From Thermoflexales bacterium (GTDB lineage Bacteria; Chloroflexota; Anaerolineae; J036; Brachytrichaceae): a stretch of DNA of 39,441 bases. This document shows, piece by piece, positions 16,013 to 32,589 of this stretch. Each line of letters starts with the position of its first letter. Position 1 is the stretch's first letter. The stretch lies in NCBI GenBank assembly GCA_025054635.1, contig JANWZM010000030.1, forward strand, positions 1 through 39,441, given 5' to 3'. Under the pieces are notes generated by a model. The model searched no databases, had not been told where the DNA came from, and was given only the letters and a program-made list of their open reading frames with translations. The position numbers were made by a program, and so were the translations under genes.

Positions 16013-17242
16013 CTACTCTGGCAACAAGCCGCGCAGCCAGCGTGAGAGGTCAAACCGGCTAAGCAAACGGCGACGTTGCGCAGGTCGCGCAGTTGAGCCC
16101 TGCAAACTCCAGTGCAACAGCCCGACCGCAGTGGAGGCGCTTGGCGAGAGCAGCCCATCCGCCATCCCGAATAAGCGCTTGGGGCGCGCGGTGCGCACAG
16201 GACGCCCCGTGACCCGTCGGGCGCACTCGCGCAGCCCAGAGAGCAGCGCTCCCCCGCCCGTCAACACCAAGCCCGCTGTCAGCAGTCCTGGGTGGTCGCT
16301 GCGTCTGATCTCCTGCTCGACGAGGTCGAATAGCTCCTCAGCGCGTGCCTGCAAGATCTCGGCTGCTTCGCGCCGCAACAGGCGGACGCGTGGTTCGTCG
16401 CCGAACCCGGCGATCTCGCAAATTTGGTCTTGCGACACGTCTGCTGGATTAGCGTGACCGTAGTCGAGCTTGAACTGCTCGGCAGCCTCGAAGGGCAGGC
16501 GCAGCACCTGTGCTAGGTCGTTGGTGAAGTGCGCGCCGCCAACCTCGATCGCCTTGGTGTACCAGGCGGCGCCCTCGGTGAAGATCGTCATGCTGGTTAC
16601 TCCACCGCCGATGTCAACCAGTACGACCCCCATGTCCTTCTCGGTCTGCGTCAACACGGCTTCTGCCGCGCCAAGGGGAGCGAGCACAAACTCAGACACG
16701 TCAACGCCCGCGCTGTGCGCGCACTTGAGCAAGTTCTGCTCTGCGGTCACCGCGCAAGTCACGACATGTGCCTGTACTTCGAGCCGAAAGCCCAACATGC
16801 CGAGCGGGTTGCGCACACCCTCTTGCTCGTCCACACGAAAGTGGCGCGGGATGACATGCAAGATGCGGCGGTTATTCGGCACAGGGATCGCCTGAGCAGC
16901 GTCCACGCAGCGGGCAACGTCCTCCTCAGTGACCCCTTGGTCACCACGGCTGATTGCGGCGGCGCCAGTTGTGTTCTGCGAGGCGATGTGCGCGCCGTTG
17001 ATCGACATCACCACTTGCGTCGGCTTGACCCCCGAGGAAGCTTGAGCGCCTGCGAGCGATTCGCGGATCGCGCTGGTTGCATCTGCAACGCTGATCACCT
17101 GCCCTCGGCGGATGCCCCGCGAGGGAGCGCTTCCGACGCCGATGATAGTGAACCCCACATCGTTCGCCGCGGCTTCGCCGACCAGCGTCAGGATCTTGGT
17201 GCTGCCAACATCAACAACCGTGACAACTCTATGTTCTGCCAT
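16013..17242 (-). CDS. ftsA: Cell division protein FtsA
   Basis: VVTVVDVGSTKILTLVGE; SHS2-containing actin-like ATPase; VVLVDIGGGVTSMTIFTEG; GLVLTGGGALLSGL; C-terminal amphipathic segment. Confidence 0.93.
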   Translation of the reverse strand: MAEHRVVTVVDVGSTKILTLVGEAAANDVGFTIIGVGSAPSRGIRRGQVISVADATSAIRESLAGAQASSGVKPTQVVMSINGAHIASQNTTGAAAISRGDQGVTEEDVARCVDAAQAIPVPNNRRILHVIPRHFRVDEQEGVRNPLGMLGFRLEVQAHVVTCAVTAEQNLLKCAHSAGVDVSEFVLAPLGAAEAVLTQTEKDMGVVLVDIGGGVTSMTIFTEGAAWYTKAIEVGGAHFTNDLAQVLRLPFEAAEQFKLDYGHANPADVSQDQICEIAGFGDEPRVRLLRREAAEILQARAEELFDLVEQEIRRSDHPGLLTAGLVLTGGGALLSGLRECARRVTGRPVRTARPKRLFGMADGLLSPSASTAVGLLHWSLQGSTARPAQRRRLLSRFDLSRWLRGLLPE

Positions 17243-17268: not shown

Positions 17269-18066
17269 TCAACGCACGAAGTAGGGTGCTTCGACGAATC
17301 GAACGTCAATGACAGTCGGTGATTCGCCTCGGTCGCGCAGTCGTTGGCGTATCTGGGCTGCTAGTGCCAACTTGTCGCGCATCGCGCCGTCGTACTCTGC
17401 CTTGCCTAGCCGCACCCGCCACCCTTCGCCCGTCACCCAGACCAGCCCGTAACGGCTGGAGTAGGCATAAAACCCGTCCTCTGGAGGCAGGTCAGCCAGC
17501 TCGTTCAAGGCGCGCACCAGTGCACGACCGAGTTGGCTACCAGGCTCAGGCAAAGCCTCGGCTTCGGCGTTGAGGCGGAGTTTGACCTCCGGCATCTCCG
17601 CGCCGACCGCATGGATGTTGCCTTCGCGGTCGCTCCACACCTTGCCGCGCGCTCCTTCGATGAGTGCAAGCGGCTCTGAGAGGTAGACCTTGATCCGGCA
17701 CCATACGCGCCACTCCCATGTGCACTGCACCTCGGCGTAGGTCACCCCCCGCAGCGACCGCACTGCCTCCGCAGCGCGCTGTGGGTCTACCTGCAGGAAG
17801 TGCTTGCCGTACAGCCCACTGGCGGCAATGACTGCCTCTGTAGGCAGGCTGCTGCTGCCGACGACAGCGATCTCCTTGACGCGCCAACTCTCACCCCAGA
17901 ACCACTGCCAGACCAGCCACACAAGCCCAGCGAGGGCTAAGACCAGCACAGCCCGTCGAACTGCGCTGCGACGCGAGCGCGCGCGCATCCGTGTGCGCGC
18001 TGCTACGGCTGCATCAAAGCGCGTGCGGGTGCGCACTTGGCGCACGGAGTGTCTCTGACGCCTCAC
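17269..18066 (-). CDS. ftsQ: Cell division protein FtsQ (POTRA)
   Basis: Single TM after Arg-rich N-terminus, VKEIAVVGSSSLPTEAVIAASGLYGKHFLQVDPQRAAEAVRSL (POTRA); position between ddl and ftsA. Confidence 0.85.
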   Translation of the reverse strand: MRRQRHSVRQVRTRTRFDAAVAARTRMRARSRRSAVRRAVLVLALAGLVWLVWQWFWGESWRVKEIAVVGSSSLPTEAVIAASGLYGKHFLQVDPQRAAEAVRSLRGVTYAEVQCTWEWRVWCRIKVYLSEPLALIEGARGKVWSDREGNIHAVGAEMPEVKLRLNAEAEALPEPGSQLGRALVRALNELADLPPEDGFYAYSSRYGLVWVTGEGWRVRLGKAEYDGAMRDKLALAAQIRQRLRDRGESPTVIDVRFVEAPYFVR

Positions 18067-19040
18067 CGTCGCGTCCTTGCCTCCTCCAACGCAAGCTCGA
18101 TCAGACGGTCAAGCAGCTCGCTGTAGCTCATCCCCCCAGCGATCCAAAGCTTTGGGTACATGCTGATCGCGGTGAAGCCGGGGATGGTGTTGATCTCGCT
18201 GACGAACACAGCCTCAGTCTGCGCGTCCATCAGGAAGTCAACCCGTGCCATGCCGCGCGCCTCAACAGCTTGTGCTACTTGGATCGCTAACCTGCGAATG
18301 TGCTCGGCAAGGGCTGCTGGCAAGGGCGCGGGGATCAACAGCCGCGATGCCTTCTCTCCGCTATCGAGGTACTTGGCTGCGTAGTCGTAAAACTCGCGCC
18401 CGGGCACGATCTCGCCGACGATAGAAGCAGTAAGCTCGTCGTTGCCTAACACGCTGACTTCCAGCTCGCGCGTGTTGGGCACTGCTCGCTCAACCAGCGC
18501 CTTGCGATCCCAGCGCAGCGCCTCCTCGATGGCTGCGGCGAGGCTGGACGGGTCTTTCACTTTCGTGACCCCGACGCTGCTGCCCATATTCGCTGGCTTG
18601 ACAAAACACGGCAAGCCGATCTGCTGCGCCACGCGCTCCAGCACAGCCGTCGGATCGCGCGCCCACTCCGCGGCGCGGACGAGCGTGCTCACGGGCACAG
18701 GCAAGCCGTGCGCGCGCATCACATCCTTGAAGATAGCTTTGTCCATGCCGACAGCTGAACCGACCACCCCTGCGCCGACGAAGGGCACGTCCAGCAGCGT
18801 CAACAAGCCCTGCACGGTGCCATCCTCGCCCATCGGCCCATGCAGCACAGGAAAGACCACATCGAAATCGCGCAGCGCCTCAAAAGGAATCGGCCAGCGA
18901 CCCTCGCGGGTGATGTAGATCGGCGTTGGCTCATACCGCGCTGGGTCAAGTGCCTCCAGAATGGACTGCGCTGACATGATGCTGACCTCATGCTCAGCCG
19001 AACGCCCGCCATACAGCACTGCAATCCGCATTTTGTTCAT
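18063..19040 (-). CDS. ddl: D-alanine--D-alanine ligase
   Basis: RIAVLYGGRSAEHEVSIMSAQSIL; FPVLHGPMGEDGTVQGLLTLLDVPFVGAGVVGSAVGMDK; VFVSEINTIPGFTAISMYPKLW. Confidence 0.96.
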   Translation of the reverse strand: MNKMRIAVLYGGRSAEHEVSIMSAQSILEALDPARYEPTPIYITREGRWPIPFEALRDFDVVFPVLHGPMGEDGTVQGLLTLLDVPFVGAGVVGSAVGMDKAIFKDVMRAHGLPVPVSTLVRAAEWARDPTAVLERVAQQIGLPCFVKPANMGSSVGVTKVKDPSSLAAAIEEALRWDRKALVERAVPNTRELEVSVLGNDELTASIVGEIVPGREFYDYAAKYLDSGEKASRLLIPAPLPAALAEHIRRLAIQVAQAVEARGMARVDFLMDAQTEAVFVSEINTIPGFTAISMYPKLWIAGGMSYSELLDRLIELALEEARTRR

Positions 19041-19055: not shown

Positions 19056-19994
19056 TCACGCGCCGTCTCTGAGTCGTTCTCGTTCTGCAGGCCAATCGCC
19101 AATCAGCTCAACTTCCAGCTCCAGGTCAATCCCGAAGCGGTCAAGCACTGCTTGATGCGCCAGGTCAATCAGCGCCTTCACGTCGCTGGCTCGCGCGTCG
19201 CCGGTGACGTTGACAAAGAAGTTGGCATGTTTGTCCGAGATCATCGCGCCGCCGATCCGGCGCCCTTTTAAGCCACACGCCTCGATTAAGCGCCCAGCGT
19301 AATCCCCGGGCGGGTTTTTAAACATGCTGCCGATGGTTGCGCCGGGGGGCTGAGTTGCCTTGCGACGGGCGATGAACTCGTTGGCGCGCCGCTCGATGTT
19401 GGCGCGATACTCCAGCTTCAAGTCGAATGAAGCGCTGAGCACAACTGCTCGGTCGGTCGGGGCATAACGCTTCAAGGCACTGGTGCGGTAGCCGAGCTGA
19501 AGCTGTCGCGGCGTCCAGTATTCGATGACGCCATCGCGGCGCAGCACGCGCACCAAGTACAAATTGCTGGCAACGTCTGCGCCGTAAGCGCCTGCGTTGC
19601 CCACAACAGCACCACCGACTGTGCCTGGCACATTGATCGCCCACTCCATCCCTGCCAGCCCGCGCTCGATGCAATCGCGCGCCAGCGCTGTCAGCAGGAC
19701 GCCCGAATCTGCCTCTACGCGCGCGGTGGTGTGCCGCACGTCGAAAGTCACCTCGCGGCTGCGGTTGAGGACGACCAAGCCGCGCACGCCTCGGTCGCTG
19801 ACCAAGATGTTTGCGCCGCCGCCAATGACGATGCAGGGCAGCCCAAGCTCATCCGCACGCTGCACGATGGCGACCAGCTCTTCGCGGCTGCGCGCCTCGA
19901 TCAGCAAGTCTGCCGGCCCGCCGATGCGGGCGGTCGTGTGCTTCGACAGCGGCTCGTTTCGCTTGGCGCGTGCTTGTAGCTCTGCCCAGTTCAT
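19056..19994 (-). CDS. murB: UDP-N-acetylmuramate dehydrogenase MurB
   Basis: NEPLSKHTTARIGGPADLLIEA; GGGANILVSDRGVRGLVV; GMEWAINVPGTVGGAVVGNAGAYG. Confidence 0.96.
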   Translation of the reverse strand: MNWAELQARAKRNEPLSKHTTARIGGPADLLIEARSREELVAIVQRADELGLPCIVIGGGANILVSDRGVRGLVVLNRSREVTFDVRHTTARVEADSGVLLTALARDCIERGLAGMEWAINVPGTVGGAVVGNAGAYGADVASNLYLVRVLRRDGVIEYWTPRQLQLGYRTSALKRYAPTDRAVVLSASFDLKLEYRANIERRANEFIARRKATQPPGATIGSMFKNPPGDYAGRLIEACGLKGRRIGGAMISDKHANFFVNVTGDARASDVKALIDLAHQAVLDRFGIDLELEVELIGDWPAERERLRDGA

Positions 19995-19997
19995 CGT

Positions 19998-21395
19998 CTA
20001 TCGGCTCAACATCTCGAGCAGCCGCTCGCCGACCTGGTTGCCGTCGCCAGCGCTCAAGGTGATCACCACGTCACCTGGGCGCACCTGCGAGATGAGAAAG
20101 CCAAGCGCATCGCCGAACGAAGCGGCTGCGCGCACCGCTTTGTGGCGGATGCGGCGGGCGAGCGCAATGCTGTTCAGCGCGTCTGCAGCAAAGCCAAAGT
20201 CCTCCGCGCGCTCGCGGGCGGCATAAACTGGCAGCACGATCACGCGGTCAGCGTCACTGAAAGACGCAGTGAACTGGTCGAGCAGCGCCAGGGTGCGGCT
20301 GTAGGTGTGCGGCTGCCAGACTGCCCACACATTTGCCAGCGGGTAGCGCATCCGCGCTGCGCGCAACGTCGCCTTGATCTCAGTGGGGTGATGGGCGTAG
20401 TCGTCAATCACCCGCACGCCGTTCGCCTCCCCGCGCAGCTCGAAGCGCCGCGCCGCGCCGCGATAGCTGCCCAGCGCGCGCACAGCCTCGTCAATTGGAA
20501 CGCCGCAAGCAGTAGCGACGACCAGCGCTGCTAGGGCATTCAGCGCGTTGTGCTCGCCCGGGACGCGCAACGAGCAGTGACCGGTCACCTCGCCATTTGC
20601 GGTTGCGCCGGTGAAGTCGAAGTCAACCCCTCCAAGCGTATTCGCACGGATGTCCATCGCGCGCCACATGCCGCGCTGCACCCCGTAGTCCACTACGAGC
20701 GCTGACGGCTCTGCCAGCCTGAGCGCGCGAGCGCACCCCTCGTCGTCAGCACAGATGACGATCAGCCCCTCTTGCGGCACGCTGCGCAGAAACAGCGCAA
20801 ACGCTGAGACCACGCTTGACTCGTCAGCATACGTGTCGGGGTGGTCGAACTCGATGTTAGTGACGACTGCGATCCTCGGCTGGTAGCGCAGAAAGGTGCG
20901 GTCGTATTCGTCTGCTTCAAGCACGAAGACCTCACCCTGCCCAGCGCGCGCGTTCGTGCCTAGCCCAATCGGTTTGGCGCCGATGATGAACGACGGGTCT
21001 GCCCCTGCTTCCTGGAGGATTGTAGCGATCATCGCGGTCGTTGTGCTCTTGCCGTGCGTGCCTGCCACAGCGACGCTGAACTTGTCCTGCAGCAGCAAGG
21101 CGAGCAGGTCGCCTCGATGCAAGATGCGCAACCCACGTTGACGCGCCTCGACAAGCTCTGGCTCGTCGGGTGAAATCGCCGAGGAGGGTGCGACCAGCGT
21201 CGCTCCGTCGAGATGGCTGGGGTGGTGTCCAACGAACACTGGGATGCCCTCAGCGCGCAGCTCTGCTAGCGTCGGCGAGTCCATGCGGTCGTCGCCTGTG
21301 ACGTAAACACCACGCGCGCGCAGGACGCGGGCGATTGCGCTCATGCCCGCACCGCCGATGCCAATGATGTGAACGCGCTCGTCTTGCAACCTCAT
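19998..21395 (-). CDS. murC: UDP-N-acetylmuramate--L-alanine ligase MurC (true start likely ATG 21395)
   Basis: RVHIIGIGGAGMSAIARVL; AGTHGKSTTTAMIATIL; DDYAHHPTEIKATL. The 36-aa ORF extension overlaps the upstream gene. Confidence 0.95.
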   Translation of the reverse strand: MRLQDERVHIIGIGGAGMSAIARVLRARGVYVTGDDRMDSPTLAELRAEGIPVFVGHHPSHLDGATLVAPSSAISPDEPELVEARQRGLRILHRGDLLALLLQDKFSVAVAGTHGKSTTTAMIATILQEAGADPSFIIGAKPIGLGTNARAGQGEVFVLEADEYDRTFLRYQPRIAVVTNIEFDHPDTYADESSVVSAFALFLRSVPQEGLIVICADDEGCARALRLAEPSALVVDYGVQRGMWRAMDIRANTLGGVDFDFTGATANGEVTGHCSLRVPGEHNALNALAALVVATACGVPIDEAVRALGSYRGAARRFELRGEANGVRVIDDYAHHPTEIKATLRAARMRYPLANVWAVWQPHTYSRTLALLDQFTASFSDADRVIVLPVYAARERAEDFGFAADALNSIALARRIRHKAVRAAASFGDALGFLISQVRPGDVVITLSAGDGNQVGERLLEMLSR

Positions 21396-21925
21396 ACCAG
21401 CACCGTGATGACGAACAGGAACACCACGACGACGACGATGATCAGCGTTGTGCCGCTGAAGATGACCGGTGAGGCGCTCTGGATGAAGAAGAACTTCTCC
21501 CATCCTCCCTCAGGCGGTCTGAACAAGTTAGTGTTCTGCGCGAGCAACCCGGTGTCGAGCGCCCAATACGCTAGTGCGCTGAGCAGCAAGTAGCCGTTAA
21601 AGCCGCCAACAATGAACGCCAGCAGCCCGCTCTCAAACCGACCGCCGCCCCTGTCGCCATTTGCAGATCGACTCAGAATCGCTGGACCAAGGTAGCCCAT
21701 GAATGCGATGAAGGCGAAGGGCAAGATGCGCCACACAAAGCGCGTGGCTGCGTCTTGTTGCTCTAGCAGCGGCTGGAGGATGCGGTTAAACTCAGGTAAA
21801 GTGTAGATGAACAAGCCAAACATCATCGAGAACAAAGCGATCACCTCGCGTGCCCAGCCGCGAACTGTGCCAAAGAAACCAAACATGACAATAAAGAAGA
21901 TAAAGAACACAGTGGCGTCAATCAC
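21392..21925 (-). CDS. CvpA-family-like multi-spanning membrane protein within the dcw cluster
   Basis: N-terminal hydrophobic segment with GTVRGWAREVIALFSMMFGLFIY (CvpA-like GxxRGxxRE); several TM segments; ATGA overlaps with murG and murC. Confidence 0.6.
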   Translation of the reverse strand: MIDATVFFIFFIVMFGFFGTVRGWAREVIALFSMMFGLFIYTLPEFNRILQPLLEQQDAATRFVWRILPFAFIAFMGYLGPAILSRSANGDRGGGRFESGLLAFIVGGFNGYLLLSALAYWALDTGLLAQNTNLFRPPEGGWEKFFFIQSASPVIFSGTTLIIVVVVVFLFVITVLV

Positions 21926-23028
21926 GCTCGCGCGACCTCCTCGAGCAATGCTGCGATTCGCTCCGCACCGTCGTGAACAGCAAGCTGGGCGCTTGCTTCA
22001 CGCATTGCGTCGAGGCGCGCCGGCGATCCCAGCAGCTCGTTAACCACCCGAGCGAGCGCACCTGCTGCTGACAGGGCGTGATCCTCGAGCAGCACCGCAG
22101 CGCCGCGCGACGCCAAGTAGCGCGCGTTGACGCGCTGGTAACGCCAAGCGTGGGGATAGGGGATCAAGACTGCGGGCAAGCCGAAGAAGGTTAGCTCGCC
22201 GAGCACACTTGCCCCTGCGCGACACACGACTAGATCGGCTGCCGCCATTGCCAGCGGCATCTCATCGTGCAAGAAGGGAAAGACTTGGTAGCGTGCGCGC
22301 ACAGCCTCGGGCAATGCCTCGCGGCGCGCGCGCACCTCCTCCCAGTCCGCTGCCCCTGTAATGTGCACCACTGTGGCGTGCCGAGTCAAGTTGGGCAGGT
22401 CGCGCAGCACCGCTTGGTTGATGCTGCGCGCGCCTTTACTGCCACCGTAAACCAACACCATCAAAGACGCCTCAGACAGACCGAAGCGCGCGCGTCCAGC
22501 CGCGCGCGTCGCCGACTTGAATGATGCGCGCAGCGGATAGCCCGTCGTGACAACGTTGCAATGGCGCAGATGGAATGTCGAGGCGTCAACGGTCGCCGCA
22601 ACTCGCGTCGCCAGGCGCGCCATCAGCCGCAGCGCCATCCCTGGTTCAACGTCAGGGAGATAGACCACACTCGGGACGCGCCTGAGCCAACCCGCTAAGC
22701 TGACCGGAACACCGACGAATCCGCCGGTGAGCAAGATCACATGCGGGCGGAAGTCGCTGATTGTGTGCAACGCCTGGGCTGTGCCCTGAGCAACGCGCAT
22801 CAAGCTGTGCGCAGCGCGCAACAAGCTAACCCCGTGCATCGCACCTGACCGAACAGAGCGGAAGGGAAGCCCAGCTCGCTGAGCAAGCTCACGCTCCATA
22901 CCGCTTTCTTCGCCAACGAACAATGCTTGTGAATCTTGCCGACGCTTGCTCAGTGCCTCCCAGACGGTCAAGGCGGGCAAAACGTGACCGGCGGTGCCGC
23001 CGGCGGAAAGGAGCACCCGCATAGACAT
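21922..23028 (-). CDS. murG: Undecaprenyldiphospho-muramoylpentapeptide beta-N-acetylglucosaminyltransferase MurG (start ATG 23028 with AAGGAGG SD)
   Basis: MRVLLSAGGTAGHVLPALTVWEAL; VVCRAGASVLGELTFFGLPAVLIPYPHAWRYQRVNARYL. Confidence 0.95.
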   Translation of the reverse strand: MSMRVLLSAGGTAGHVLPALTVWEALSKRRQDSQALFVGEESGMERELAQRAGLPFRSVRSGAMHGVSLLRAAHSLMRVAQGTAQALHTISDFRPHVILLTGGFVGVPVSLAGWLRRVPSVVYLPDVEPGMALRLMARLATRVAATVDASTFHLRHCNVVTTGYPLRASFKSATRAAGRARFGLSEASLMVLVYGGSKGARSINQAVLRDLPNLTRHATVVHITGAADWEEVRARREALPEAVRARYQVFPFLHDEMPLAMAAADLVVCRAGASVLGELTFFGLPAVLIPYPHAWRYQRVNARYLASRGAAVLLEDHALSAAGALARVVNELLGSPARLDAMREASAQLAVHDGAERIAALLEEVARA

Positions 23029-24193
23029 GCTTGCCTCCTTGGTCACCGATGGATGAACTTGGCTCGATAAGCACCCTACTGCCGCGGCTGACGCTGACCA
23101 CAAGCCCCGCGCTTGCCAGCAGCGCAACAAGCGACGAGCCCCCCTGACTGAGGAAGGGCATTGGCATCCCTGTAAACGGGATTAGCGCTAGCACCGCGAG
23201 CACATTGAGCAGCATTTGACCGATCACCCAAGCGACGATGCCGACCGCAACGAACGCACCGAAAGCAGTGTCGGCGTGATGCGCGATCACTATCCCGCGC
23301 CAGGCGAAGATGACAAACAACACCAGGGTCGCGACTAAGCCGACTAGCCCCATCTCTTCACCGAGCACCGCGACGACGCTGTCGTGGTGCGGTGTCGGCA
23401 AAAAGCCAAACTTCTGCCTTCCTGCGCCTAGCCCGTTGCCGAACAGCCCGCCCTCGCCCAGGCTGATCAGCGATTGGCGAATGTGGTAGTCCGGCTCGCC
23501 TGCGGTGCTCCACAGCGAGATAAAGCCTTGAATGCGCTTCACTGCATGGGGGAAGAGTTGGGTTAAACCCGCAAACGCCAGCAGCGCAACGAGGAATACC
23601 AGCACCATCTGCTGAATGCTGGCGCCTGCTAAGAAGAACATCACCAGCGCGATCAGCACCAAAACAGCCGCTGTGCTGAAATCCGGCTGTATGACGACGA
23701 GAAAGGCGACGCTGCCTGCGATGATCCCAAACGGGATCAAACCATCCATAAAGCTGCGCACCTGTTCGCGGCGCGAGGACAGCCAAGCGGCTGCGTAGAT
23801 GATCAGCCCGACCTTGGCGACCTCGCTCGGTTGCACGGAATTGTTCAGCAGCGTGCGCCGCGCGCCGAAGTGCTCCTCACCAAACAGAAGCACAGCAACC
23901 AACAACGCAAGACAGACCAGCATGATCCGCACCGCGTAGCGCCGCGCTATCCCATAGTCCGCGTTTGCTGTTGCTACAAATGCAGCGAGACCAAGCGCAG
24001 CAAACGCGGCTTGGCGCAGGAAGGTCGTTACGCCCTCTTCCCAGAAGAACGTGGTGCTGTAAGACATCAGCAGCCCAAGCGCGGTGAGCGCCAGGGTCGC
24101 CGCGACAAACCCCCAGTCAGGAGGGCGTCGCTCACGTCGCTGTCTCAAGGAGCGAATAGGGAGGGCACGGGTTACCATTGCTCGTTCACCCAT
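22889..24193 (-). CDS. ftsW: Lipid II polymerase / cell division protein FtsW (SEDS)
   Basis: SEDS family: LNNSVQPSEVAKVGLIIYAAAWLS; FSTAAVLVLIALVMFFLAGAS; IPFTGMPMPFLSQGGSSLVALLASAGLV. Start may be 24178. Confidence 0.94.
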   Translation of the reverse strand: MGERAMVTRALPIRSLRQRRERRPPDWGFVAATLALTALGLLMSYSTTFFWEEGVTTFLRQAAFAALGLAAFVATANADYGIARRYAVRIMLVCLALLVAVLLFGEEHFGARRTLLNNSVQPSEVAKVGLIIYAAAWLSSRREQVRSFMDGLIPFGIIAGSVAFLVVIQPDFSTAAVLVLIALVMFFLAGASIQQMVLVFLVALLAFAGLTQLFPHAVKRIQGFISLWSTAGEPDYHIRQSLISLGEGGLFGNGLGAGRQKFGFLPTPHHDSVVAVLGEEMGLVGLVATLVLFVIFAWRGIVIAHHADTAFGAFVAVGIVAWVIGQMLLNVLAVLALIPFTGMPMPFLSQGGSSLVALLASAGLVVSVSRGSRVLIEPSSSIGDQGGKHVYAGAPFRRRHRRSRFARLDRLGGTEQASARFTSIVRWRRKRYGA

Positions 24194-25533
24194 TGGCGGA
24201 ACTTATCGCCGCGTTCGGCAAAATCCTTGAACTCGTCATAGCTTGTGCCCCCAGGGGAGAGCAGCACGACGTCTCCTGGCTGGGCGATCTGCTGCGCTGC
24301 GCGCACTGCTTCGCGCAACGACGGGGTGATCACCCATGGCGCCTCACCCGCGGCGGCGCGTAGGTGCTCAGCGACCATCGGCCCCATCTCGCCGAAGAGC
24401 ACGATTGCCTTGCAGCGCGCACGCATCAACCGCGCTGCCTCGTCCCAGGGCAAGTGCTTGTCCCGACCACCGCACAACAGAATGACAGGCTGTTCAAAGC
24501 TGTTCAGCGCAGCTATCAACCGCTCCGGTGCTGTGGCGATTGAGTCGTCATACCAGCGCACGCCGCCTCGCTCTGACACAAGCTCTAAGCGGTGGGCGAC
24601 ACCGCGGAAGCTCGTCGCAACCGTGCGCACTGCTTCAATTGGCGCGCCTGCAAGGACGCTGATTGCCGACGCTGCCAGCACGTTTAAGATGTTGTGCTCG
24701 CCCATTAGTTTCAGGTCGTTGCGGTGAGCAATTACCTGCTCTTGTCCATGCAGGCGCAGCCGCAGCGTGCGCCCAGCGTCTAGCCATGCGCCCTCTTGGT
24801 CAGGCGGCAGCGGATGCGCGCTGAACCACACCGTGCGTTCGGGCTTGCCCATCTGCACCGTGATGGGGTTGTCCGCGCACAGCACGCGCCAATCCGAGGG
24901 CGACTGAAAGTCCAGAATGCGCCGCTTGGCGGCAACATACGCCTCCATCGTCCCGTGGCGGTCGAGGTGGTTTGGGGTGATGTTGGTGATGCAGGCGATG
25001 TGCGGGCTGCGCGTCATGAGCTCGAGCTGGAAGGAGGACAGTTCCATTACAACGACGTCATCCGCTTGGATGTGCGCCAGGTCGGTGATCAGGGGATTGC
25101 CGATGTTGCCGCCGACCCAAACGCGCTGCCCGGCTTGTTTAAGCATCTCGCCAACGAGCGTCGTCGTTGTCGTTTTGCCTGCCGAGCCCGTGATCCCGAC
25201 CACAGGGGCAGGGCAGCGCTCGATGAAAAGCTGGGCGTCGTTCGTAAGCGGGATGCCTCGGCGCTGCGCCTCGCGCACGATCGGCAAGTCGAGCGGCACG
25301 CCGCCGCTGACGCAGACCAAAGTGCACCCGTCGAGCAAGCCAAGAGGATGCCCGCCGCCGACAACGTTCAGCCCTTCTAGCTCTGCCAAGTCGTCTAGCT
25401 CAAGCGCCTGGACTGGCTTGGCGTCGTTTAGCGTGACGCGCGCGCCTTGCGCAAGCAAGTAACGCGCCAGCGCCTTGCCTTGCCGCGCGGCGCCGAGGAT
25501 CAACACTTGTTGGTCGTGCCAGCTCTCAATCAC
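24172..25533 (-). CDS. murD: UDP-N-acetylmuramoylalanine--D-glutamate ligase MurD (likely GTG start at 25533)
   Basis: VVGITGSAGKTTTTTLVGEML; ITNITPNHLDRHGTMEAYVAAKRRI; WYDDSIATAPERLIAAL; LLSPGGTSYDEFKDFAERGDKFRQWV. Confidence 0.95.
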   Translation of the reverse strand: MIESWHDQQVLILGAARQGKALARYLLAQGARVTLNDAKPVQALELDDLAELEGLNVVGGGHPLGLLDGCTLVCVSGGVPLDLPIVREAQRRGIPLTNDAQLFIERCPAPVVGITGSAGKTTTTTLVGEMLKQAGQRVWVGGNIGNPLITDLAHIQADDVVVMELSSFQLELMTRSPHIACITNITPNHLDRHGTMEAYVAAKRRILDFQSPSDWRVLCADNPITVQMGKPERTVWFSAHPLPPDQEGAWLDAGRTLRLRLHGQEQVIAHRNDLKLMGEHNILNVLAASAISVLAGAPIEAVRTVATSFRGVAHRLELVSERGGVRWYDDSIATAPERLIAALNSFEQPVILLCGGRDKHLPWDEAARLMRARCKAIVLFGEMGPMVAEHLRAAAGEAPWVITPSLREAVRAAQQIAQPGDVVLLSPGGTSYDEFKDFAERGDKFRQWVNEQW

Positions 25534-26651
25534 GGCGATCCTCCTGCGCTCACACAGCCCAGCAAGCACCGCCCGGCGCGAATCTCCTCCATCGGCGGGT
25601 TGCCGAACGAGGCTAAACCAATGCCGACCATGCCGAAGAACAAGGCAATGACGAAGAAGCGCTGGACGATTTGTGGCTCACTCCACCCAAGCAGCACGAA
25701 ATGATTGTGCAAGGGCGACATCTTGAACAAGCGTCTACCCTCTCCGTACTTGCGCTTGGTGTATTTGAAGTAGCCCACTTGCAGGATCACGCTTAGGGTC
25801 TCCGCCATGGGCACAATGGCGATGATCGGCAGCAACAGCCATTGACCTGTCATCAGCGCGACCACGCCGAGCACGCCGCCGAGCGCTTCACTGCCTAGGT
25901 CACCCATCATCACTTGGGCAGGGTGGATGTTGAACCACAGAAACCCTAACAGTGACCCGACTAGCACCATGCACAACATGGTGATGAACACCTGACCTTG
26001 CATGTACGCAATGACGCCGTAAGCGACAAACGCGACGCTGACGATCAACGCTGCTAACCCATCCAAGCCATCAGTGAGGTTGACGGCGTTTGCCGAGGCG
26101 TGAATGATGAAGACAGCTACTGGAATCCACGCCAGTCCTAGCGCGATTGGGTCGCTGATGCCGGGGATGCCCACGCGGTTGACACCGAAGGCGAGGTTCA
26201 TCACCAACGCAGCCGCTACGGCGATGATCAACTGGATCAGCGCCTTGCTCCGCCCGCGCATTCCCTCACCGCGCCGAATCCCGATGACGCCCATGTAGTC
26301 GTCCACCGCGCCCAGGGCGGCAAAGCCAAGTAAGACGAAGATTGGCACGGCAATTGAGTTGCCGACCAGCACAAACTGCACCAGCGCTGGATCAATCCGC
26401 ACCGCCAGGCGGGTGTAGGCATACATCACGCCGATCAGCAGAACGGTCGGCAGGATGAACATCACCCCGCCCATCGTTGGCGTGCCTGCCTTCACGTAGT
26501 GGCTGGCTGGACCGTCAATTCGGATGCGCTTGCCGATGCGGGCTTTCTTGAGCACGTGGATGACTGCCGGCCCAAGCAGCAGGGTGAGCACGAAGGCAGC
26601 TCCACCTGCCATCAGACAAATCCCCATCTGTGGTGCGGAAAGTTGCCCCAT
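25530..26651 (-). CDS. mraY: Phospho-N-acetylmuramoyl-pentapeptide-transferase MraY
   Basis: GPASHYVKAGTPTMGGVMFI; NAVNLTDGLDGLAAL; GDLGSEALGGVLGVVALMTGQ; PLHNHFVLLGWSEPQIVQRFF. Confidence 0.96.
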   Translation of the reverse strand: MGQLSAPQMGICLMAGGAAFVLTLLLGPAVIHVLKKARIGKRIRIDGPASHYVKAGTPTMGGVMFILPTVLLIGVMYAYTRLAVRIDPALVQFVLVGNSIAVPIFVLLGFAALGAVDDYMGVIGIRRGEGMRGRSKALIQLIIAVAAALVMNLAFGVNRVGIPGISDPIALGLAWIPVAVFIIHASANAVNLTDGLDGLAALIVSVAFVAYGVIAYMQGQVFITMLCMVLVGSLLGFLWFNIHPAQVMMGDLGSEALGGVLGVVALMTGQWLLLPIIAIVPMAETLSVILQVGYFKYTKRKYGEGRRLFKMSPLHNHFVLLGWSEPQIVQRFFVIALFFGMVGIGLASFGNPPMEEIRAGRCLLGCVSAGGSP

Positions 26652-28117
26652 TAATTGCCCTCCGCTTCTGCCAACGCCCCAAGGCCGGCGACGATCTCCT
26701 CCATCTTCATGCCGCGCGACCCCTTGACCAGGATGACGCAGCGCTCAGTGACGAGCTGCTGCAGCAGCGATAGCGCCTCCTCGTTTGTGTTGACGTGAAA
26801 GACGCGCTCAGGTTTTGCGCCGCACTCGATAGCTGCTCGGCACATCCAAGCAGCGCGGGCGCCAACTCCGATGAAGTAGTCAGCCACACTGCCTGCACGG
26901 CAGCCGACTTCCTCGTGTGCTTGGCGTTCTAACTCGCCGAGTTCGAACATGTCGCCCAACACAGCAACGCGCGGCCCATGCTCGCTGATTTCGCTCAGCA
27001 AATTCAGCGCAGCTAGAGTGGATTCGCGGCTGGCGTTGTAGGCGTCGTCCAGCACTAGCGAACCGCGCGGCCCTTTAGCCATCACTAAGCGAAGCTGCTC
27101 TCCGGGCGCGAAGAACGCCTCAGCGACCTCCTCCAGCGACATTCCTTCGATCAGCCCGACCGCAGCCGCGCGCAGCGCGGTGTGGACGCTGTGCCGCCCA
27201 AGCAGCGGCAAGCGCATTTTGAGGCTGCGCTTGTCGTAGTGCAGCGTGAACGCGATCCCGTTCAGCCCAAAACTTTCGATGTCGCTTGCGCGCACCTGCG
27301 CGGTCTCAGCCGTCCCGTACGTCACCACCCGCGCGCGCGTGAGCGCAGCCATGGCGCGGACGCGATCGTCGTCCTCGTTGAGCACAGCGACGCCGCCAAC
27401 TTCAGCCGGTGGCAGCGCCTGGACAAGCTCTGACTTTGCCTGAGCGATCCGCTCGATGCTGCCCAAGCGGGAGAGGTGCACTGGGGCGACCATCGTCACT
27501 ACGCCGATGTGAGGGCGCGCCCACTGGCAATAGCTGGCGATCTCGCCGAGTTGATGCATACCCATCTCAATTACCGCGCGCTCATGCGTCGGGCGCAGCT
27601 TGAGCAGTGTGAGCGGCACGCCAATCTCGTTGTTGTAGTTCCCTTCGCTTTTCAGCACGCGGAAGCGCGTTGCCAGCACTTGAGCGATTAGCTCCTTCGT
27701 TGTCGTCTTGCCCACACTGCCAGTCACACCGACGACGCGCAACTGCGGGTTGGCAGCGCGCAGCCGCCAGAAGGCAGAGAGCTGCTGAAGTGCTGCCAAG
27801 GGGTCTTCTACGCAGATCAGCAGCGGATCTTCGCGCGTCAGCGGCGTCTCGGGGTGTGCTACGTCAAGGCGCTGAGCTGAAACGCCATCGAGCAGCGCCA
27901 CTTTGCCGCGCTGCACTAGCGCGACGCGCGCACCGCGGCTCAGCGCGTCCGCGACGAAGTAGTGCCCATCGGTGTGCTCACCTGCCAGCGCTACAAACAT
28001 TGCGCCAGGTTGAGCCTGGCGCGAGTCGATCACAACATTCGTGATCGGCATGGCTTGAGCCTCTGTGCGGCGCAGCCCGCTGAGCGCCTCGATGACATCT
28101 GCAACCGTGAGTGTCAT
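26651..28117 (-). CDS. murF: UDP-N-acetylmuramoyl-tripeptide--D-alanyl-D-alanine ligase MurF
   Basis: VVIDSRQAQPGAMFVALAGEHTDGHYFVADALSRGA; GVTGSVGKTTTKELIAQVL; LVLDDAYNASRESTLAAL; VLVKGSRGMKMEEIV. Confidence 0.95.
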   Translation of the reverse strand: MTLTVADVIEALSGLRRTEAQAMPITNVVIDSRQAQPGAMFVALAGEHTDGHYFVADALSRGARVALVQRGKVALLDGVSAQRLDVAHPETPLTREDPLLICVEDPLAALQQLSAFWRLRAANPQLRVVGVTGSVGKTTTKELIAQVLATRFRVLKSEGNYNNEIGVPLTLLKLRPTHERAVIEMGMHQLGEIASYCQWARPHIGVVTMVAPVHLSRLGSIERIAQAKSELVQALPPAEVGGVAVLNEDDDRVRAMAALTRARVVTYGTAETAQVRASDIESFGLNGIAFTLHYDKRSLKMRLPLLGRHSVHTALRAAAVGLIEGMSLEEVAEAFFAPGEQLRLVMAKGPRGSLVLDDAYNASRESTLAALNLLSEISEHGPRVAVLGDMFELGELERQAHEEVGCRAGSVADYFIGVGARAAWMCRAAIECGAKPERVFHVNTNEEALSLLQQLVTERCVILVKGSRGMKMEEIVAGLGALAEAEGN

Positions 28118-28137: not shown

Positions 28138-29859
28138 TCAGCCTGCCCGAGCCGAGGCAATGCCTGCGCGTCGGCACAGGTAGGCAACCACGTCGCGGAA
28201 CACAGGGCCAGTCGTCGGCGCTGCCCAGCGCGAGGACTGGGGCTGGTCTAGTTTTACGAGCACAGTGAATCTGGGTTCAAGCACAGGGGCAAAGCCCACA
28301 TAGGTCACGATGGTGGTCTCTTGTCTGACGCCGTTGCGATACCACTCGGCTGTGCCAGTCTTCCCAGCGGCTGGGCACTCTGGCGGAAGCGCCTGCGGCG
28401 TTGCGCGGCGGCTGGCGCGCGCCATCAGCTCCCGCAATGTGCGCGCGGTCTCGGCGCTGATCACGACCCGCGACGGAGTGGGCTGCTTGTGGACGACTGT
28501 GCTGTTCACTGGCTTCCACTTGCGCACAACGTAGGGTTGCATCCACATCCCATCGTTAGCGACTGTGTTGAAGGCGTTGAGCACTTGGATCGGAGTCGCC
28601 ATCATCCCCTGACCAAAGCTGTTCGTGGCTAGGTCTGTGCGCGACCACTCCACATCCCGCGGCGTGCGCAACCGCCCAGGCGACTCGTTGGCAAGGTCAA
28701 TCCCTGTAATGCTGCCGAACCCGAATAGGCTCAGGCGCTCGTAGAAGTCCTTCGCGCCGAGGTCGAGCGCGATCTGTGCTGTGGGCACGTTCAGGGACAG
28801 CGCTAACACGTCCTCGATGCTGGCACGCCCTCGCCGAATGCCCTCGGCATTGCGGATCGCTCGCCCCGAGATCACCAACCTGCCCGTGTCGGTCAGAATG
28901 CTGTTAGGCGTGATCAGCCCTTTCTCCAGCCCAGCCGCGATTGTCATCACTTTGAGCACCGAGCCAGGCTCGTAGGGCACGCTCACCACAGGGTCAACAA
29001 GCAAACCCGGCTGCGCAGCTAACTCGACGGCGCGGTTGGGGTCGTAGCCTGGCGCGACTGCCGAAGCCAAGATTGCGCCTGTGCGGGTGTCCATGACCAC
29101 AATGACACCGCTCTGGGCGCGCGTTTCCTGTAACGCCTGTTGCAGGCGTTGCTCGACATAAGTTTGCAGCGCTAGATCCACGGTGAGCACCAGGTCTGCT
29201 CCTTCAAGCGTCGGCGTGACAACCAGCACATCGGTGCGGCCGCGCTCGCGGCGGACACCAGGCGGAGGGTTAAGCTCGCTGTCGTAGTAGCCCTCTACGC
29301 CTGCGTAGCCTTTCGGCTGCAAGCTGACGAAGCCAATGAGCGGACCCGCGACTAGCCCTTGGGGGTAGACCCTTGCCCAGCCCTTCTCGACGAGGAGACC
29401 GCGTAGTTTGCGCGCCGCAACCGTCGTGGTCAACATGTGCGTGACCTCGGGTGAGAGGTTGTAGGCGAGGATCGTGCTCAGAGTCGGCGTCGGCGAGCGG
29501 CTATCAGCGATGATGCCGCGAATCTGCTGCTGAAGCTGCTCCACAGGGCGACCTGTGGCGGGGGAGAGTGCCTCTGCCAGTGCCGACACCTGTGCTGACA
29601 GGTCGGGTTCAGCCGACAGGGCGGCTGGATCAAGGCGCACGAGGTAGGCGCGCTGGCTCACTGCGAGCACAGCGCCAGAGCGATCAAAAATTCGCCCGCG
29701 CGGTGCAGGGTTGAGGTAGGTCTTCAGTTGCTGGTAGCGCGCTTGTGCAGCGTAGCGCTGTCCCTCTACCACCTGTACGCGCAGCGCTTGAACCAACGCA
29801 AGCACAAGCAGCAGGCTGAAGACAAGCCCTAAAGTGAGCAACCGACGCGACGAGAGCAC
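28138..29859 (-). CDS. ftsI: Peptidoglycan D,D-transpeptidase FtsI / class B PBP (likely GTG start 29859 with GGAGGT SD)
   Basis: PBP dimerisation domain RGRIFDRSGAVLAVSQRAYLV; active-site YEPGSVLKV; AAGKTGTAEW. Confidence 0.93.
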   Translation of the reverse strand: MLSSRRLLTLGLVFSLLLVLALVQALRVQVVEGQRYAAQARYQQLKTYLNPAPRGRIFDRSGAVLAVSQRAYLVRLDPAALSAEPDLSAQVSALAEALSPATGRPVEQLQQQIRGIIADSRSPTPTLSTILAYNLSPEVTHMLTTTVAARKLRGLLVEKGWARVYPQGLVAGPLIGFVSLQPKGYAGVEGYYDSELNPPPGVRRERGRTDVLVVTPTLEGADLVLTVDLALQTYVEQRLQQALQETRAQSGVIVVMDTRTGAILASAVAPGYDPNRAVELAAQPGLLVDPVVSVPYEPGSVLKVMTIAAGLEKGLITPNSILTDTGRLVISGRAIRNAEGIRRGRASIEDVLALSLNVPTAQIALDLGAKDFYERLSLFGFGSITGIDLANESPGRLRTPRDVEWSRTDLATNSFGQGMMATPIQVLNAFNTVANDGMWMQPYVVRKWKPVNSTVVHKQPTPSRVVISAETARTLRELMARASRRATPQALPPECPAAGKTGTAEWYRNGVRQETTIVTYVGFAPVLEPRFTVLVKLDQPQSSRWAAPTTGPVFRDVVAYLCRRAGIASARAG

Positions 29860-29884
29860 TGCATTACCTCCTGTGCGGTCCACC

Positions 29885-30211
29885 TCAGCGGTTGGCGCCC
29901 GTGAGCAGCACCTCTTGCTCCTCTGGGGGGGCAAAGCCGAGCTGTCGCGCCCGCCCAACCATCACGCGCGGCGAGGTCACCTCGCTGATCTCAACCCATA
30001 GCTGATTGGACTGTTCCTGCAGTTCGATTTGCTGCTGCTCGAGCCGTTCGAGCTCTTCCAGCAGCGCCACGTTCTCGGTGCTCAGCCACAGCCACAGTAC
30101 GGCAAGCGCCAAGAAAATAACTGTGCTCACGACCACGATGAGCAGCGCAGCGCGCTCAGACACGCGGACGTTTGCCAGCCAGTCTCGAGTTTTGCGGATC
30201 GCGTTTGTCAC
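29885..30211 (-). CDS. FtsL/DivIC-like septum protein (likely GTG start 30211)
   Basis: Short protein, single TM then coiled coil (LLEELERLEQQQIELQEQSNQLWVEI); position between rsmH and ftsI. Confidence 0.75.
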   Translation of the reverse strand: MTNAIRKTRDWLANVRVSERAALLIVVVSTVIFLALAVLWLWLSTENVALLEELERLEQQQIELQEQSNQLWVEISEVTSPRVMVGRARQLGFAPPEEQEVLLTGANR

Positions 30212-30215
30212 CCTG

Positions 30216-31124
30216 TCAACCTCCGATGCGCTCGGCGACGCGCAGCCGTGCGCTGCGCGCGCGCGGATTGACTGCAATTTCCTCGGGCGAGGGCATGATC
30301 GGTCGTCGCGTGAGCAACTTCAGCCGCGGTGGCGAGGCATTCGCCTTACCAAACCCAGGCGAGTAAGCCTGCGGCATGGACTCGTGCCTGAAGGTCTCTT
30401 TCACGATGCGATCCTCGAGTGAGTGAAACGCGATGACGGCAATCCGCCCTCCCTCAGCCAAGAGATCGATCAAGCGCGGCAGGGCTTCGCGCAGGCGGCG
30501 CAGTTCATCGTTGACGGCGATGCGCAACGCCTGAAAGACTTGCGTCGCAGGATGAATCCGCCTAGAGCGCGGCTTGATGATGTCAGCGACGACATCGCGT
30601 AACTGGCTTGTGCTGCGCAGCGGGCGTGCGCGCCAGATCGCCTGCGCGACGTGCATGGCGTTGGGCACCTCGCCATATTCGCGCAGCACGCGGGCAAGCG
30701 TGGCGAGGTCTGTCGTGTCGAGCCATTCAGCGGCACTGATGCCTGCTGTTGGGTCGAAGCGCATGTCCAGCGGCCCTTCGCGCATGAACGAAAAGCCGCG
30801 GGCGGGGTCTTCGAGCTGATTCGCCGACAAGCCGAGGTCGACCAGCACGCCGTCCACGGGGGCGAACCCAAGCTGACGCGCTCGCGTCGGCGCTTCATCA
30901 AGCCAGCATGGGTGCAGGATCAAGCGTTCGTCGGGGATGCACGCGCGCACGCGCACAATCGCAGCCGGGTCGGCGTCAAAGCCCAACACCAAGCCATCTG
31001 GCGCGCAACGCTCGAGAAGCCCTGCGGCGTGCCCGCCGTTGCCCACAGTGCAATCTAGGTAGCGCCCGCCGGGACGCGGCTGTAACGCTCGCATCACTTC
31101 GTCAAACAGAACTGGCACATGCAT
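30216..31124 (-). CDS. rsmH: 16S rRNA (cytosine(1402)-N(4))-methyltransferase RsmH (MraW)
   Basis: HVPVLFDEVMRALQPRPGGRYLDCTVGNGGHAAGLL; DGVLVDLGLSANQLEDPARGFSF; GGRIAVIAFHSLEDRIVKETF. Confidence 0.96.
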   Translation of the reverse strand: MHVPVLFDEVMRALQPRPGGRYLDCTVGNGGHAAGLLERCAPDGLVLGFDADPAAIVRVRACIPDERLILHPCWLDEAPTRARQLGFAPVDGVLVDLGLSANQLEDPARGFSFMREGPLDMRFDPTAGISAAEWLDTTDLATLARVLREYGEVPNAMHVAQAIWRARPLRSTSQLRDVVADIIKPRSRRIHPATQVFQALRIAVNDELRRLREALPRLIDLLAEGGRIAVIAFHSLEDRIVKETFRHESMPQAYSPGFGKANASPPRLKLLTRRPIMPSPEEIAVNPRARSARLRVAERIGG

Positions 31125-31130
31125 CGCGCC

Positions 31131-31559
31131 TCAGACGCCTAACTTCGCCCAGATGTTCTGGTCGGCTGCATGCGTGCGTATTTCCTGCTGGGCGCGATCC
31201 CATTCAGATGCATTCCACAGCTCAATGAACCGCCCCACGCCGACGATGATGACTTCGCCGGCGAGGGCAGCGTAGTCGCACAGCGCCTGCGGAATGACCA
31301 CACGGTTTTGCTTGTCGGGCACTGTGTCGTAAGCATTTGTGAACAGCAGCCGGCGCAACGTTGCTGCCTCGCGATCCATCAAGGGCAGCGCACTCACGCG
31401 CTCGAACAGCGCTTGAAACTCCTCTGCTGGGTATACAAGCAGGCACTTGTCCATCCCGGCGGTGATCACAACGCCGTCAGCAAGGCGTGTGCGGAACTTC
31501 GCTGGCAACGCCAGGCGGTTCTTGTCGTCCAATGTATGGACAAACATGCCTAAAAACAT
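31131..31559 (-). CDS. mraZ: Transcriptional regulator MraZ
   Basis: MFLGMFVHTLDDKNRLALPAKFRTRLADGVVITAGMDKCLLVYP; duplicated AbrB-like fold. Confidence 0.95.
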   Translation of the reverse strand: MFLGMFVHTLDDKNRLALPAKFRTRLADGVVITAGMDKCLLVYPAEEFQALFERVSALPLMDREAATLRRLLFTNAYDTVPDKQNRVVIPQALCDYAALAGEVIIVGVGRFIELWNASEWDRAQQEIRTHAADQNIWAKLGV

Positions 31560-31589
31560 AAAAGCACAAGTGGAGAGCCGCTGGTCGCA

Positions 31590-31623
31590 CCACGATGCAC
31601 CACTCTACCCCACTTTGCGCCAC
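31590..31623 (-). promoter_or_regulatory. Predicted MraZ operator: four GTGG boxes at exact 10-nt period
   Basis: Minus strand GTGGC gcaaa GTGGG gtaga GTGGT gcatc GTGGT; plus-strand CCAC at 31590, 31600, 31610 and 31620. Confidence 0.75.
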
Positions 31624-31624
31624 C

Positions 31625-31652
31625 ATCATACACTGAAGCCTCTAATCCGCAA
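31625..31652 (-). promoter_or_regulatory. Predicted promoter of the dcw cluster
   Basis: Minus strand TTGCGG-N16-TATGAT immediately upstream of the GTGG boxes. Confidence 0.6.
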
Positions 31653-31740: not shown

Positions 31741-32589
31741 ATGGAACCGCGAGTTGCCTTCGAGATCGGGCCGATCAAGGTTCACTGGTATGGGATCGCG
31801 GTCACACTCGGCATTCTGACAGCGACGTTCATCGCCTCGCGCGAGCTAAAACGCCGCAGCCTCGACGTGGCTTTGGCTTGGGACGGGGTGCTGTGGGTCA
31901 CTGGGTTCGGGCTTGTCGGTGCGCGGCTGTATCACGTCTTATCGTCGCCAAATGACGGGGTGAGCGGCGGCTGGGCGTACTACAGCCAAAACCCGCTGCA
32001 GATCTTTGCAGTGTGGAACGGAGGGTTGGGCATCTTTGGAGGGCTGCTCGGCGGCACGCTTGGCTTGTGGCTCTTCACGCGCAAGCATGGCGTGCCGTTC
32101 TGGATCGTTGCGGACAGCGCTGCGCCTGGCGTTGCGCTCGGGCAGGCGGTCGGTAGGTGGGGCAACTACTTTAACCAGGAACTCTACGGAGGCCCAACAG
32201 GCTCTTCGTGGTGGGGAGTCACTATTGACCCACCCTACCGCATCCGCACGCCCTACGCGGACTACACAGACCTGGCAACTTTCCCGCCAGAGACTCGGTT
32301 TCACCCCACTTTCCTCTACGAGTCGGTGTGGAATCTGATTGGATTCGCGTTGCTCATCTGGCTTAGCCGACGCTGGGCTTCTCGCCTGCGCGAGGGAGAT
32401 TGCGCAGGGGGTTATTTGGTTTGGTATGGCGTAGGGCGAGCCTGGATTGAGCTTCTCTTCCGACCTGACGCATGGACGATTGGCAGTGTGCCAACCGCTG
32501 TCCTTTTCGCTGCTGCATTTGTCGTGCTCGGGGTGGGTGTGCTCGTGGCAAATCGCCTGTCCGTGCCCCTGAGCACCCAGCGCGCATAA
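31741..32589 (+). CDS. lgt: Prolipoprotein diacylglyceryl transferase Lgt
   Basis: FEIGPIKVHWYGIAVTLGIL; GQAVGRWGNYFNQELYGGPT; HPTFLYESVWNLIGF. Confidence 0.95.
   Translation: MEPRVAFEIGPIKVHWYGIAVTLGILTATFIASRELKRRSLDVALAWDGVLWVTGFGLVGARLYHVLSSPNDGVSGGWAYYSQNPLQIFAVWNGGLGIFGGLLGGTLGLWLFTRKHGVPFWIVADSAAPGVALGQAVGRWGNYFNQELYGGPTGSSWWGVTIDPPYRIRTPYADYTDLATFPPETRFHPTFLYESVWNLIGFALLIWLSRRWASRLREGDCAGGYLVWYGVGRAWIELLFRPDAWTIGSVPTAVLFAAAFVVLGVGVLVANRLSVPLSTQRA

Follow-up and report, generated by a model that had tools for sequence, protein, structure and literature searches.

What does a short, strictly periodic repeat at the mraZ promoter of a Thermoflexales bacterium do? In the window, the whole 39,441-nt stretch of DNA analysed, the minus strand upstream of mraZ reads TTGCGG, a 16-nt spacer, TATGAT, g and then GTGGCgcaaaGTGGGgtagaGTGGTgcatcGTGGT. 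GTGG starts here at 31623, 31613, 31603 and 31593, a period of exactly 10 nt. Boxes and spacers follow one another as GTGGC (box 1, 31619–31623), gcaaa, GTGGG (box 2, 31609–31613), gtaga, GTGGT (box 3, 31599–31603), gcatc and GTGGT (box 4, 31589–31593); boxes 3 and 4 have neither the common GTGGG nor an AAA spacer. The first box begins 1 nt past the −10 hexamer TATGAT (31625–31630; TATCAT or TATGAT in relatives), and 29 nt separate the end of the last box from the mraZ ATG at 31559. The −35-like hexamer TTGCGG (31647–31652) is weak, matching the consensus poorly; its TTGC is kept in the alignment of G000, G001 and G002 and in most of the family. A strict sigma-70 scan of the mraZ promoter called no promoter. 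Were transcription to start some 7 nt past the −10 (close to 31618), box 1 would lie between the −10 and +1 (about −5 to −1) and the array would span about −5 to +30. The initial annotation had reported four GTGG boxes at an exact 10-nt period just past the −10, correct to the base, and its placement of the array at the mraZ promoter stood, while its span of +1 to about +30 had to be moved upstream as above. GTGT at 31633, weighed as a degenerate fifth box, keeps the register but is absent from the same-genus genomes G001 and G002, and was taken as chance.

The gene downstream of the array (31131–31559, minus strand) encodes a bona fide MraZ of 142 amino acids. In profile searches the protein scored 125 bits against TIGR00242 (cut-off 98.35) and 106 bits, in two stretches, against PF02381. 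It carries two DxxxR motifs (DDKNR, DKQNR), and D11, R15, D82 and R86 were invariant across 16 aligned sequences, in which its MFLG start also agreed with that of relatives. The monomer model (pLDDT 91.8) resembled MraZ structures with a TM score of about 0.8, matching 9qlg, 1n0e and 9sz7. Identity to the G001 and G002 proteins was only 61–63%. Two class relatives contained second, divergent mraZ-like genes (G031:C57:28513-28863 and G053:C1:2401619-2402011), neither with an upstream GTGG array.

MraZ is followed on the same strand by rsmH, ftsL, ftsI, murF, mraY, murD, ftsW, murG, murC, murB, ddl, ftsQ and ftsA, with neighbours mostly overlapping or separated by small gaps. The rsmH gene (mraW; 30216–31124, TIGR00006) lies 6 nt past mraZ. 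An ftsL-like gene (29885–30277) was named from its cluster position and from matches to NF053549 and TIGR02209 below cut-off, and a murF-type ligase gene (26651–28117) from its open reading frame and cluster position only. The ftsI/pbpB-type transpeptidase (28138–29958; TIGR02214, 300.6 bits) scored below cut-off and ftsW (22889–24193; TIGR02614, 304 bits) just under it. The run further comprises mraY (25530–26651, TIGR00445), murD (24172–25569, TIGR01087), murG (21922–23130, TIGR01133), murC (19998–21503, TIGR01082), murB (19056–19994, TIGR00179), ddl (18063–19040, TIGR01205), an ftsQ-like gene (17269–18066; POTRA_1, FtsQ-type) and, as its final gene, ftsA (16013–17242, TIGR01174). The divergent neighbour of mraZ is lgt (31741–32589, plus strand, TIGR00544). 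In the 2.69-Mb assembly the array at the mraZ promoter was the single occurrence of three GTGG boxes in register. Allowing one mismatch gave 15 three-box matches genome-wide versus 19 for a backwards-pattern control, which is no excess; the exact site therefore stands alone, and no further regulon is claimed. Since ftsZ does not adjoin ftsA but sits on another contig (G000:C19:1894-2874), and since the genome has no other exact array, control by MraZ through the mraZ operator would not reach ftsZ directly.

Alignment of mraZ upstream regions from related genomes, proposed as a check in the initial annotation, revealed that the boxes were conserved and that the GTGG periodicity was kept in the genus, family, class, phylum and other phyla. 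For locating mraZ on genome contigs an alignment-based scan was productive; a single-protein query gave no matches. In G001 and G002 all four boxes were kept in register, 1–2 nt from the −10; TTGC, TGTATnAT and the boxes were retained, and most of the other intergenic sequence was unalignable. Among the 25 family genomes with mraZ, one, two, three, four and five boxes occurred in 1, 3, 11, 9 and 1 genomes, respectively, so that 21 of the 25 had at least three. The longest array of the family, upstream of mraZ in L010 (G016), comprised five GTGG boxes with a period of exactly 10 nt. At least three boxes were also found in 17 of 29 further class members and, in a phylum-wide draw, in 79 of 104 Chloroflexota genomes (four boxes: 15/104). 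The same layout, mostly with three boxes, occurred at Firmicutes, Actinobacteria, Atribacteria and candidate-phyla loci of named genomes. The relatives G010, G003, G015 and G019 had one or two exact boxes only, so that the GTGG word by itself misses some of the sites. With MraZ and the dcw cluster downstream and with box position and period conserved, the proposed MraZ operator was borne out, as was the assignment of the source lineage to Chloroflexota.

Seven loci of families f49 and f59 (L092, L093, L094, L097, L104, L107 and L108) had a second, GTGGGATAAT-type array with a 10-nt period away from mraZ. These arrays lay upstream of a MoxR-type ATPase gene or a Yip1-like gene, or near pyrD (names from reading the translations), several of them roughly 60–90 nt upstream of a TATAAT-like −10. 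They could be under the control of MraZ or of some other protein that binds direct repeats. An Rfam search at the second arrays of Chloroflexales returned no match.

Compared with three-box operators of the family (G009, G013, G017 and others), the array studied here is longer by one box, added in register at the end nearer the −10. The first box of three-box family members generally lies 8–12 nt past the −10 (about 10–12 nt in the operators just named), and boxes 2–4 here sit likewise, box 2 occupying the position of box 1 in those relatives. Boxes 2–4 thus coincide with the usual three, and box 1 is an extension towards the −10. A first box 0–2 nt past the −10 was found in the source's genus and in G006, and genus g6 carries its fourth box on the downstream side instead. 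Phylum-wide, 17 of 26 arrays with at least four boxes started 0–2 nt after the −10 versus 12 of 89 three-box arrays (Fisher p about 6e-7, a guide only, given the relatedness of the sequences and the use of predicted −10 hexamers). Judged from these predicted promoters, a fourth box that extends the array upstream to abut the −10 is a repeated pattern in Chloroflexota. A Rayleigh test of the helical phasing of the array relative to the −10 did not single out a period of 10, and no phasing is claimed.

The E. coli MraZ operator at the mraZ promoter, as reportedly described by Eraso et al. in 2014, has three direct repeats of the TGGG type separated by 5-nt spacers. The array here is likewise made of such repeats and spacers at the same promoter, with four boxes in place of three. 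A closer likeness is the dcw promoter of Burkholderia cenocepacia: upstream of mraZ, four repeats with a period of 10 nt lie past the −10 and over the dcw start site, and the fragment that contains them is bound by MraZ (PMC7761207). That organism belongs to another phylum, and its operator comes with a mapped start site and EMSA, whereas the present array is known from sequence. Among PDB entries, 9r4j is MraZ with its promoter and 9sz7, by its title, MraZ with a 4-box promoter; this Mycoplasma genitalium protein is homologous to the MraZ here (about 34% identity, TM about 0.8), although the Mollicute motif AAAGTG[T/G] (PMC8475190) is unlike the GTGG boxes. To present four boxes as unusual against three, as the initial annotation did, was thus an overstatement, since they are known in Burkholderia (PMC7761207), in 9sz7 and at 15 of 104 Chloroflexota mraZ promoters. 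The four-box layout is not new; the array adds a member to the known MraZ operators.

The four boxes very probably serve the MraZ of the adjoining downstream gene as its operator, through which it would exert negative feedback on the dcw cluster. By homology, a ring-forming MraZ would contact one box after another along a single face of the DNA, the boxes lying at intervals of about one helical turn. Bound in this way, it would occupy the promoter as far as about +30, beginning directly past the −10 and taking in the start site, and block RNA polymerase, lowering transcription of mraZ and of the genes presumably reached by read-through. Autorepression is the likely outcome of such binding because the array overlaps the promoter and because there is precedent in E. 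coli, Mycoplasma (PMC8475190) and Burkholderia (PMC7761207). In describing this autorepression as strong, however, the initial annotation went too far. Binding would not by itself entail regulation, as MraZ from M. gallisepticum is reported to bind a non-cognate repeat in vitro as well, with no in vivo effect (PMC5282649). MraZ might also bind with net activation or fine-tuning as the result, or the fourth box might serve another role, e.g., in polymerase escape. The array does shift relative to the −10 by about one helical turn between lineages, as these options would allow, but a site overlapping +1 favours repression over activation, and MraZ of E. coli acts as a repressor of the cluster that encodes it, according to the citing passage of PMC8475190; we consider them improbable.

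A poorer candidate still, and a quite improbable one, is another regulator, such as DnaA or a direct-repeat controller, whose site happens to sit upstream of mraZ. Some relatives do have exact DnaA boxes (TGTGGATAA) that overlap their MraZ boxes, and HsdC, an unrelated controller, has similar GTG repeats with a spacing that differs by 1 nt (PMC5282649). Yet the array tracks mraZ across phyla, and the consensus DnaA box (TTATCCACA/TGTGGATAA) was absent from the 39,441-nt window, so the promoter was not classed as DnaA-regulated and the DnaA-box enrichment described below bears on relatives, not on the four-box array. Of the 134 mraZ upstream regions in the first sets, 17 contained exact DnaA boxes, against 0.31 expected from shuffles; L128 and G025 are seemingly one genome here, and the eight g6 genomes are closely related. 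The phylum set had such boxes in 23 of 104 regions (0.23 expected). Their rate in mraZ upstream regions was 0.96 per kb versus 0.0074 per kb in flanking DNA, about 130-fold higher. The regions concerned included L004–L011 (genus g6) as well as L208, L210, L213, L215, L220–L222, L227–L231, L233, L235, L236, L239–L241, L243, L249, L261, L281 and L306. Two layouts were seen. In g6 of the source's family, f54, f46, f51 and f72 the DnaA boxes lie upstream of the promoter; in f58, f69, f81, f90 and f92 an MraZ-type GTGG box, within the array or adjacent to it, doubles as the DnaA box. At mioC in E. coli, a DnaA box overlaps a site to which MraZ binds (PMC4446571), and in B. subtilis the ftsL promoter region is bound by DnaA (PMC8203912).

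That the repeat is a functionless G-rich tandem arisen by chance, for which only the shortness of the box speaks, has a negligible probability and is already refuted by conservation of the array, in the genus among others; the controls for shuffling, word, strand, period and flanking DNA came out negative throughout. In 20,000 dinucleotide-preserving shuffles of the 200-nt region upstream of mraZ, four boxes in register never occurred and three occurred four times; the chance expectation for a GTGG array in the whole window was 0. Three-box matches numbered 94 in 26 kb of mraZ upstream DNA versus 1 in 679 kb of flanking DNA. Within the family and class mraZ upstream regions, control words and the antisense word formed no arrays of three, and periods other than 10 yielded no three-box arrays except one at 20, a multiple of 10.

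The array is predicted to place MraZ feedback on the division and cell-wall cluster of a little-studied Chloroflexota lineage, and its analysis provided a phylum-wide census of the MraZ operator in Chloroflexota. Tentatively, and at somewhat less than even chance, many Chloroflexota and some candidate-phyla and Firmicutes dcw promoters may be composite MraZ/DnaA sites, whose exact DnaA boxes either lie shortly upstream of the −35 or coincide with one of the in-register MraZ boxes; the source's genus would then show the MraZ part only, with a fourth box. If so, the division-gene promoter could be contested between MraZ and the replication initiator DnaA. The enrichment of DnaA boxes at mraZ promoters offers a testable link from replication initiation to division-gene expression.
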